Source of the DNA: an uncultured Tateyamaria sp.
GTDB lineage: Bacteria; Pseudomonadota; Alphaproteobacteria; Rhodobacterales; Rhodobacteraceae
Assembly (NCBI RefSeq): GCF_947503415.1
Contig: NZ_CANNDS010000004.1
Coordinates: forward strand, 186,001-250,000
DNA length: 64,000 bases
Direction of reading: 5' to 3'
In this document: positions 29,520-31,194 of the stretch, piece by piece
Layout: each line of letters starts with the position of its first letter
Position numbering within the stretch: position 1 is the first letter of the stretch
Notes under the pieces: generated by a model
The model's input: the letters and a program-made list of their open reading frames with translations, nothing else
Told to the model about the DNA's origin: nothing
The model's database searches: none
Program-made: the position numbers and the translations under genes

Positions 29520-30221
29520 ATGACCGAGCTGCTGACCGCCGCCCAGATGCGCGCCATCGAACAGGCCGCGATTGAGTCGGGGCAGGTGACGGGCCTTGAG
29601 TTGATGGAACGCGCGGGTGCGGGCGTGGTCGAGGCTGTTTTGGAGGAATGGCCGGAATTGGGCGAGGGCGCGCACCGTGCCGTAGTGCTGTGCGGGCCTG
29701 GGAACAATGGCGGCGACGGGTTTGTCGTGGCGCGGTTGCTTAAGGAGCGCGGGTGGAATGTTGAGGTTTTCTTTTATGGAGATCAACAGGCCTTGCCGCC
29801 GGATGCAAAGTCAAACTTCACTCAGTGGCTCACATTGGGAAGTGTGTATTTCTTGGGTTTTCCGCGTCTAGCTGAGCAAGACGGCGTTGTTTTTCAAACA
29901 GCCACATTTGCTCAAAGCAAAACCGAGGTCTTGATTGATGCCCTCTTTGGCATCGGCCTAAGCCGATCACTAGCCGCTCTCGAGCCCATACTGGGATGCA
30001 TTGAGCCAAACCTGAATCTCTGGGACAAGGAATGGGGTTGGCCGCACCTTGTCTCGATAGATGTTCCAAGCGGGCTAAATGAAAGTGGTAGACTTGGGAC
30101 CGGAAACGAAATTTTTGTCGCTGACTTAACAGTCACATTTCATGCTGAAAAAAAGATGCATGTCAGTGATCCCGACATATGCGGAAAAGTCGTCGCAAAA
30201 GACATTGGCTTGCATGGCTAG
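29520..30221 (+). CDS. nnrE: NAD(P)HX epimerase half of a split nnr gene
   Basis: A 233-residue protein corresponding to the N-terminal YjeF epimerase domain of bifunctional Nnr, which interconverts the R and S forms of damaged NAD(P)H hydrate. The motif [21 protein letters not shown] and [21 protein letters not shown] and [11 protein letters not shown] are intact. In most bacteria this domain continues in frame into the dehydratase. Here a TAG follows DIGLHG, and the dehydratase is in another frame (+1). The second half of this domain is GC-poor (about 38-50% in 60-base samples) compared with its surroundings (sampled near 65% or more), suggesting recombination. The ATG 29520 has GAGGA 7 bp upstream. 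Confidence 0.85.
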
Positions 30222-31194
30222 CACATCAACCAACCGGCCCTCCGGGGTGTCAGCCCCGGATCGCGCCCGACCCGCCCCCCAAGGCGGGCGCGATGCGCCC
30301 ACCCTCGGGTCGGGCGCGATCCTAAGTTCGGACGCGGTGCGGGTTGTTGAAGCGCCCACGTCTTTGGCAAAGGTAACGGGCCACAAGTTCGACCACGGTC
30401 ACGCCTTGATCCTGTCAGGTGGTGCCGGGCGTACAGGCGCTGCCCGTCTGGTCGCGCGCGGGGCGCTGCGGATCGGGGCGGGCCTGGTCACGCTTGCCGT
30501 GCCGCCCGCAGCGCAGATGGAGGTGGCGTCGCAGATCACCGCCCTCATGCTGTCGCGTGTGGGGGATGCCGGCGCGCTGAACGCAGTGCTGGAGGATGAG
30601 CGGATCAACGCCCTGTGCCTGGGTCCCGGTCTGGGGTTCGAACGGGCCCGCGCGTTGGTGCCGGTGGCGGTGCGCATCAAGCGCGCACCCCACGTGGTGC
30701 TCGATGCGGACGCGTTGAGCGCTTATGCGGATGATCCAGCGGAGTTGTGCGACATGTTGCATGAGCGCTGTGTGCTGACGCCCCATGGGGGCGAGTTTGC
30801 GCGGCTGTTTCCTGACATTGCCGAAAAGCTGAACGCGATCCCGGACCAAGGGCCTGCCTATTCCAAGGTCGATGCGACCCGAGAGGCGGCGGCACGGTGT
30901 GGTGCGGTCGTACTCTTCAAAGGACCGGACACTGTGATCGCCCATCCGGATGGGCGCTGTTCTGTCCACGCGGCAGCTTATGGCCGCGAAGCGCCGTGGC
31001 TGGCCACAGCAGGCGCGGGGGACGTTCTTGCGGGGTTCATCACCGGGCTTCTGGCGCGTGAGTTTGATCCGATGGCGGCCTGCGAGACGGCGGTCTGGTT
31101 GCATGTCGAGTGCGCGCGCGTTTTCGGCCCCGGTTTGATTGCCGAGGACTTGCCTGAACTCTTGCCGCAGGTTTTGCGGGGGCTGGAGGCCTAA
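30214..31194 (+). CDS. nnrD: ADP-dependent NAD(P)HX dehydratase half of a split nnr gene
   Basis: A 326-residue reading from the ATG 30214, which overlaps the upstream TAG. It corresponds to the C-terminal YjeF/CARKD dehydratase of Nnr, which removes water from NADHX/NADPHX with ADP. Motifs: HALILSGGAGRTGAARLVARGALRIGAGLVTL, TPHGGEFARLFPD, VVLFKGPDTVIA and the phosphate-binding TAGAGDVLAGFITGLLA. The first ~45 residues are encoded by a GC-rich palindromic insert and are not family sequence; conserved sequence starts near KVTGHKFDHGHAL. No clear ribosome site precedes 30214, so expression may rely on coupling, on an in-frame start further up (30142) or on none. Its stop overlaps that of the convergent Hint gene. 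Confidence 0.82.
   Translation: MASTSTNRPSGVSAPDRARPAPQGGRDAPTLGSGAILSSDAVRVVEAPTSLAKVTGHKFDHGHALILSGGAGRTGAARLVARGALRIGAGLVTLAVPPAAQMEVASQITALMLSRVGDAGALNAVLEDERINALCLGPGLGFERARALVPVAVRIKRAPHVVLDADALSAYADDPAELCDMLHERCVLTPHGGEFARLFPDIAEKLNAIPDQGPAYSKVDATREAAARCGAVVLFKGPDTVIAHPDGRCSVHAAAYGREAPWLATAGAGDVLAGFITGLLAREFDPMAACETAVWLHVECARVFGPGLIAEDLPELLPQVLRGLEA
30241..30322. repeat. Multi-hairpin palindromic element at the nnrE/nnrD junction
   Basis: Three nested or adjacent inverted repeats are visible. The first is a 7-bp stem TCCGGGG/CCCCGGA (30241-30260). The second is a perfect 17-bp inverted repeat with arms at 30258-30274 and 30306-30322 (GGATCGCGCCCGACCCG and its complement). The third is an inner GGGCGC-GAT-GCGCCC hairpin (30286-30300). 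It resembles REP-like palindromic elements and sits precisely where the two Nnr domains should join. Confidence 0.8.

Follow-up and report, generated by a model that had tools for sequence, protein, structure and literature searches.

The nnr locus of an uncultured Tateyamaria: two overlapping genes whose junction lies in a hypervariable, apparently exchanged cassette

Organization of the nnr locus

The stretch of DNA analyzed here (the window, 64,000 nt, positions 186,001 to 250,000 of contig NZ_CANNDS010000004.1) belongs to the genome of a marine bacterium, an uncultured Tateyamaria sp. (GCF_947503415.1, 4.87 Mb in 18 contigs) and contains an nnr locus at which the NAD(P)H-hydrate epimerase and dehydratase domains are encoded by two overlapping genes, nnrE and nnrD (Table 1). 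The two domains do not share one open frame, as they do in the bifunctional single-polypeptide Nnr, which repairs damaged NADH in two steps. The original prediction, made from the letters of the window, that the two halves lie in different frames with an ATG overlapping the TAG of the first, is borne out: the frame of nnrD is +1 relative to that of nnrE, and the start and stop codons overlap.

Table 1. Coordinates of the features of the nnr locus in the window
Feature	Position	Strand	Basis or remark
nnrE, predicted stand-alone NAD(P)H-hydrate epimerase (YjeF_N), 233 amino acids	29520–30221	+	ATG at 29520, TAG at 30219–30221
nnrD, predicted stand-alone ADP/ATP-dependent NAD(P)H-hydrate dehydratase	30214–31194	+	ATG at 30214–30216, TAA at 31192–31194
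Overlap of the nnrE TAG and the nnrD ATG, 8 nt, ATGGCTAG	30214–30221	+	Open reading frame coordinates; equivalent in L002, L003, L004
N-terminal part of NnrE, conserved (codons 1 to ~102, with GPGNNGGDG)	29520–29825	+	Pair identities, breakpoints
Apparently exchanged hypervariable cassette (second NnrE half and interdomain linker)	29826–30381	+	Transferred from breakpoint medians, 61 pairs
65-nt palindromic element, 17-nt arms at 30258–30274 and 30306–30322	30258–30322	+	Inverted repeat, arms 100% complementary
glnB, divergent P-II regulator neighbor	29008–29343	–	Conserved context

The first half matches the Pfam family YjeF_N (PF03853, E = 3e-33; 115.6 bits, cut-off 24.9) and the second half Carb_kinase (PF01256, NAD(P)H-hydrate dehydratase, E = 1.3e-44). 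NnrD carries an N-terminal extension of 61 codons ahead of the GHAL motif, contains TAGAGDxLAG, and shows no mismatch at the columns that are conserved in 97% of 112 loci. NnrE contains the epimerase active-site motifs GPGNNGGDG, DALFGxG, SxDxPSG, and TFHxxK; the lysine of the last one, K211, appears from an alignment to TM0922 to be the equivalent of E. coli K192, which the available text of PMC5938422 gives as an active-site lysine of the epimerase.

Modeled alone with AlphaFold2, from an alignment of 69 family members, NnrE is predicted to adopt a well-defined fold (predicted local distance difference test 89.1, predicted template modeling score 0.89). The solved structures closest to the model are TM0922 Nnr (2ax3/3rss), mouse AIBP (2dg2), and yeast YNL200c (1jzt). 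By sequence, both halves match TM0922 Nnr; NnrE additionally matches YNL200c and AIBP, and NnrD matches 3rph/1kyh, an ADP/ATP-dependent NAD(P)H-hydrate dehydratase that we take to be B. subtilis YxkO. Each half thus has counterparts among stand-alone proteins, so that independent folding of the two is plausible.

Occurrence of split and fused genes

Examination of the same locus in close relatives, suggested as a check in the original prediction, reveals three further split genes (L002, L003, and L004) with the same 8-nt overlap. A total of 127 loci were read, including 80 named ones, and removal of 10 duplicates leaves 117 non-redundant loci, of which 88 are fused, 27 are split, one has nnrD only, and one has a broken nnrE. 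The 112-locus set used in the comparisons below consists of the 115 fused and split loci minus three with a multi-segment or partial nnrE. The 20 genomes of the genus comprise nine with split genes, nine with fused genes, one with nnrD only (G006), and one with neither gene (G019). In the sample of the family (Rhodobacteraceae), NnrD is matched in 340 of 395 genomes, and among the best 150 of these 340 matches 18 have short open frames, 15 of them true splits; the other three, left out of the split count, are G389 and G205 (fused, at contig ends) and G170 (broken nnrE). The split in the window is real. Among cultivated relatives, Tateyamaria pelophila DSM 17270 (L125) and Tateyamaria sp. syn59 (L092) have split genes and T. 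omphalii (L071) a fused one.

The split genes do not follow one pattern. The nnrD frame relative to nnrE is +1 in 17 of the 27 splits, +2 in seven, and 0 in three. On the rpoB tree of the genus, the distribution of split and fused states requires at least five changes; the NnrD tree has 21, of which the well-supported branches force just five. In two other alphaproteobacterial genera, an open frame of fusion length is found in 7/7 and 24/26 of the matched genomes, and fission from a fused ancestor is therefore the simpler reading, while some re-fusion or transfer of fused copies is possible. Among the papers listed by searches of the open-licence PMC literature, none describes an nnr that is hypervariable, or split repeatedly, in this group of bacteria, the roseobacters.

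A hypervariable cassette across the junction

The nnrE/nnrD junction falls inside a segment that differs profoundly between otherwise similar loci. In the Rhodobacteraceae sampled, this cassette spans from NnrE codon ~103–109 through the linker to the HK[FY] of NnrD; in the window, its 3' edge lies about 15 nt ahead of the codons for GHALILSGG. A two-breakpoint fit to 61 pairs places the median edges at NnrE codon 103 (range 44–129, with about 10 pairs near codon 45) and at –15 nt from GHAL. In the pairs L095/L096 and L066/L095, NnrE codons 1 to ~100 and NnrD are 92–100% identical per 25 residues, against 8–48% for the rest of NnrE, and L095/L110 likewise share 92–100% per 25-residue block in the N-terminal part of NnrE while carrying different alleles. 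The DNA gives the same picture for L095/L096, L066/L095, and L053/L065: the gene flanks are mostly 80–100% identical, the cassette 22–59%, and identity recovers at NnrD. In L053/L065, the 120 nt of intergenic DNA upstream of nnrE also dip, to 69–75%.

The second part of NnrE (E2, as opposed to the first part, E1) behaves as a series of discrete alleles. Among 51 pairs whose NnrD is at least 85% identical, E2 identity is below 50% in 45, at least 65% in six, and between 50 and 65% in none. Over the 112 loci, the divergence of NnrD correlates with that of E1 (Mantel r = 0.353, 0/500 permutations as high) and not with that of E2 (r = 0.042, 139/500); for E1 and E2, r is –0.158 (493/500). Grouping E2 at 60% identity yields 88 groups in these loci. 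The mean frequency of the best residue is 0.43 in E2 and 0.83 in E1; the motif residues are retained while most other positions change. Fused copies are as variable as split ones. It should be mentioned that some E2 alignments are shortened at the 3' end, where tblastn stopped early.

The cassette also differs in base composition. In the window, the G+C content of NnrE codons 81 to the end is 48%, compared to 67% for codons 1–80 and NnrD, which makes the window the extreme of the 112 loci in G+C difference to NnrD; the corresponding values in the family loci are 57–58% and 65–68%.

Exchange or rapid change in place

The discrete alleles are, in our analysis of the sequences, best explained by exchange of the cassette between species, and we consider it probable that the fission of Nnr at its interdomain linker, which gave two overlapping genes still encoding both repair enzymes, is one outcome of this wider exchange. 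In the mechanism we propose, the cassette would be replaced through recombination in the conserved flanks. The linker accommodates changes of length and of frame, stops, and palindromic elements read in frame, and fission has probably occurred repeatedly as a result. Cassettes that cause or carry a fission could then move with the exchange. L053 is fused and L065 is split, and between these two loci the state changes along with the cassette while the flanks stay conserved.

The alternative that has to be weighed first, although we regard it as unlikely, is that no exchange occurs and that the cassette is weakly constrained and evolves very fast. It would account for the low residue frequencies of E2 and for the coincidence of the breakpoints with the edges of conserved blocks. 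Against it stand the gap at 50–65% identity and the absence of a correlation with NnrD divergence. In the three closest pairs, moreover, the nonsynonymous divergence (dN) of E2, 0.74–0.87, exceeds the synonymous divergence (dS) of the flanks, 0.23–0.67, which makes mutation within the lineage an unlikely source of the difference. Nor is the cassette free of constraint within an allele: among 21 same-allele pairs, the ratio dN/dS (ω; simple Nei-Gojobori estimates throughout, with high dS) of E2 is computable in 17; it is 0.03–0.25 in 16 of these, and only the least diverged pair stands higher, at 0.53.

Shared alleles that are younger than their flanks are what transfer predicts. We compared the divergence of the E2 DNA with that of E1 and NnrD in all 39 pairs that share an allele (E2 at least 60% identical). 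E2 is the less diverged part in 10 at p < 0.05 and in six after Bonferroni correction, namely, the Roseovarius pair L055/L058 (6.1% vs 17.6%, p = 1.7e-8) and five Ruegeria pairs. Several observations weigh against exchange as the full account. In 12 of the same 39 pairs, the divergence of E2 exceeds that of the flanks at p < 0.05 (four after Bonferroni correction), which implies that E2 also evolves faster in place; this set includes the split pairs L003/L007 and L004/L007, with L003/L004 not reaching significance (p = 0.056). The pairs are furthermore not independent, several of the 10 favorable ones representing one Ruegeria allele group.

The two other alphaproteobacterial genera, used as controls, speak against fast change in place as the explanation. 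In their 7 and 25 sequences (L211, with no clear frame, L194, a second copy, and L221, a contig fragment, were left out), E2 is at least 69% identical in 17/17 pairs with NnrD at or above 80%, whereas in the family set E2 is below 50% in 219/235 such pairs. In four Paracoccus records, which form one group, the cassette is no more variable than the flanks; the linker of one of them is. As a separate observation, the NnrD of Paracoccus denitrificans HAMBI_2443 (L222) is 57–59% identical to those of L223–L226, which agree with one another at 87–99%.

The genes around nnr provide a further control. Six genome comparisons, filtered for shadow open reading frames, covered about 40 kb around nnr and, for G000, the entire window; a gene was flagged when one 60-residue stretch was at or above 85% and another at or below 40% identity. 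The nnr gene is the only one flagged in G002/G004 (1/31) and G004/G012 (1/27). In G000/G002 (13 pairs), nnrD with the linker is flagged, and in G000/G001 (33), nnrE and one other gene. In G002/G012 (26 pairs), which share the nnr allele, and in G001/G008 (27), the one flagged gene is not nnr; the alleles differ in the latter comparison, and nnr probably escapes the flag because split and fused frames did not pair whole. With nnr flagged in four of the six comparisons and one other frame in each of three, nnr stands out strongly among its neighbors, if perhaps not uniquely.

One of the frames of the window, at 6270–7823, has a 60-residue stretch that is 34% identical to its counterpart in G001 and another that is 98% identical, and is a second candidate for local replacement.

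The idea that viruses or plasmids serve as a reservoir for the cassette was considered as well and set aside. The window NnrE has no match in IMG/VR, a weak test for a hypervariable region, since the query reaches close relatives only; a phage collection gives 11 matches of just 27–34% identity, several in records that resemble bacterial DNA, and all 44 matches to plasmids are below 60%.

Function of the two halves

The original prediction left two possibilities, that the gene was broken or that the halves have become separate proteins, and favored the latter because both keep their active-site motifs. The comparison supports this view to the extent that sequences can. Seven residues (D140, F143, G144, D181, F207, K211, and H214 in window numbering) are unchanged in all 27 split copies. 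In the fused copies, the first five are found in 85/85 and K211 and H214 in 79/85, several of these alignments ending early. Of the NnrD columns conserved in 97% of the loci, the split copies keep 99.3% and the fused ones 99.4%. For the split pair L003/L004, ω amounts to 0.12 for E1, 0.16 for E2, and 0.09 for NnrD. Both halves thus look functional.

Decay, with a broken gene and NnrE on its way out, is in our estimation improbable. It draws on the fact that G006 has no nnrE between glnB and nnrD (L176, 3250–3613): the order there is glnA–glnB, nnrD, next gene, the nnrD frame is open, and the genome is the sister of G018 on the rpoB tree. The loss of nnrE with retention of nnrD suggests that the epimerase can be dispensable, which counts against a maintained function of NnrE, and a dehydratase alone is listed for 168 genomes in the available text of PMC5938422. 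The window copy itself has the most extreme cassette composition and carries E188 at a position that is D in 26/27 splits and 85/85 fused copies, a mark against this copy. On the other side stand the seven motif residues and the low ω of the split pair, together with the full YjeF_N fold predicted for the window protein and the equal variability of the fused copies.

Expression of nnrE and nnrD

The geometry of the locus suggests that the two enzymes are most likely coupled by termination-reinitiation. The start codon that overlaps the upstream stop is kept in the window locus and its relatives (L001–L004), and 14 of the 27 splits have a start codon no more than 10 nt from the nnrE stop, with four more at –11. 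No clear Shine-Dalgarno sequence is seen upstream of the nnrD ATG of the window, and reinitiation after the TAG is for this reason the likely mode: on a single mRNA, ribosomes ending at the TAG of nnrE would restart at the overlapping ATG of nnrD. The same lack of a Shine-Dalgarno sequence is also a difficulty for the coupling, and a further one comes from the other splits. The nearest usual start is at least 12 nt away in eight of the 27 (+12 to +43 in seven, –20 in L133) and absent in L021, so that with nine such cases coupling is not universal; several of the distant ATGs are preceded by a GGAG-like motif. No known RNA family is found at the nnrE/nnrD junction, and one sub-threshold match lies elsewhere.

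A programmed +1 frameshift, by which the fused protein would still be made through recoding, is very unlikely. The nnrD frame of the window is open for 92 nt upstream of the end of the nnrE stop, and a shift anywhere in this interval would fuse the halves. However, the nnrD frame of L025, L065, and L137 opens only past the nnrE stop, and L012 and L021, both in frame 0, could yield a fusion only by readthrough; programmed frameshifting can for these reasons not be general. In addition, the overlap is just 8 nt in L002, L003, and L142, and no common slippery site is discerned by eye.

The palindromic element in the linker

The original prediction placed the split at a palindromic insert. The inverted repeat is there (its arms score 17, and 30 shuffled versions of the linker reach no more than 9), and its region folds with a predicted energy of –78.4 kcal/mol (z = –3.4); its position at the break is mistaken, as it begins 37 nt past the nnrE stop, within the nnrD frame, where it translates as ...APDRARPAPQGGRDAPTLGSGAIL... 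and is thus read in frame in a gene.

The four loci L001–L004 have a common junction and recognizably related linkers. The palindrome is present in L001 and L003, a remnant is possible by eye in L002, and none is found in L004, which is nevertheless split. The distance from the nnrD ATG to GHAL is 61, 54, 61, and 37 codons in L001 to L004, respectively; the extension of L004 is shorter than that of L001 by exactly 24 codons (72 nt), and the frame is therefore preserved. Judging kinship by eye and from translations, elements of the window kind occur in the split loci L001 and L003 and the fused loci L006 and L130, and a second kind (PRPRVGVKPPPGGAVGGCPAVPPGD) in the split loci L056, L089, and L132 and the fused loci L059, L066, and L097. 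With mismatches allowed, the inverted repeat exceeds 30 shuffles in L001, L003, L130, L089, and L132 and narrowly in L056 and L006; in L059, L066, and L097, where it is shorter or worn, it does not.

That the palindrome caused the split, as the presence of palindromes in the linker of five of the 27 splits (L001, L003, L056, L089, and L132) might suggest, is accordingly rejected as highly unlikely. A locus is split without it, the element follows the stop, and related elements lie in frame in five fused genes, with the limit that among these the inverted repeat stands out from shuffles only in L130 and, marginally, L006. The link between split and insert thus falls. A sequencing or assembly error concealing a single frame, for which a +1 shift beside a GC-rich hairpin would be a plausible site and for which a contig of a metagenome-assembled genome (L108/L131, with identical NnrD sequence), whose nnrE is interrupted within the GPGNNGG motif by a lone in-frame stop, may offer a precedent, is practically negligible, given three other genomes with the same overlap in different surrounding sequence and 27 non-redundant split loci.

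Elements of the window kind are matched in 10 of the 20 genomes of the genus, that of the window included; the other copies of the window element lie mostly in doubtful or non-matching frames that resemble shadow or short open reading frames. A different insert is seen in the fused L006 (~2640–2902, G029), where repeat-like PGSGPGR segments interrupt the NnrD domain, apparently in frame.

Neighboring genes

The locus adjoins glnB–glnA in the window as in its relatives. GlnB is 95–99% identical beside nnr in three of them, including the one that lacks nnrE, and the order glnB–nnr is also annotated in Paracoccus ferrooxidans. A convergent open reading frame at 31191–31694 (minus strand) overlaps the end of nnrD by 4 nt, is conserved beside nnrD in three relatives at 70–84%, and resembles what we take to be a Hint-type domain. 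The closest named match to NnrD is from an uncultured Tateyamaria (89%), very near records possibly being omitted from the search, and places the genome among the roseobacters.

Comparison with known systems

The Nnr/YjeF proteins (E. coli YjeF, T. maritima TM0922) have both domains in the same order and with the same motifs as the window pair. They differ in being one polypeptide, whereas the window has two overlapping genes with a hypervariable second epimerase half. The stand-alone enzymes, that is, NnrE of mouse (AIBP/NAXE) and yeast and NnrD of 3rph/1kyh, resemble the two halves individually and differ from the pair, which is encoded by adjacent, overlapping genes. The genes of those stand-alone enzymes are generally unlinked or lack the partner. 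With respect to the cassette, mosaic genes that exchange hypervariable parts, such as vaa of Mycoplasma hominis (PMC524362), are comparable to nnr in having highly variable segments at a fixed locus. The product of vaa is a surface antigen, while Nnr is a cytoplasmic metabolite-repair enzyme.

In the available text of the GeneTack survey (PMC3711429), frame transitions attributed to translational coupling resemble that of the window in that the downstream start is no more than 10 nt from the upstream stop. The main text of the survey does not mention YjeF (0 occurrences), and the nnr geometry, in contrast, varies between lineages. The palindromic elements of Rickettsia are, according to the available text of PMC10969869, also read in frame inside a metabolic gene, but they are of about 150 nt and of other sequence, while the window element, which may or may not be mobile, is of about 65 nt.

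Implications

According to the available text of PMC5938422, epimerase and dehydratase are fused in 97% of the 1,248 genomes that have both, and a second role has been proposed for the epimerase. As the present family splits nnr repeatedly, it offers natural, matched pairs of fused and split sisters, with which one can ask what maintains the fusion in other organisms and whether the proposed second role exists.

The hypervariable cassette is the more surprising and the larger finding. Discrete alleles on conserved flanks are expected of surface antigens or specificity subunits, not of a metabolite-repair enzyme. A tentative explanation, which we hold to be possible without favoring it, is that the second half of NnrE serves as a recognition module, under selection for diversity and exchanged horizontally, within an otherwise universal cytoplasmic repair enzyme. 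An intracellular antagonist or partner (a phage protein, an injected toxin that needs a host factor, or a mobile element) would recognize the NnrE surface, so that rare alleles would be favored and negative frequency-dependent selection by the antagonist would be the driver. Once separate from NnrD, the module could be exchanged or disappear with no harm to the dehydratase. If the cassette does reflect such a conflict, it would point to an antagonist that touches NnrE.

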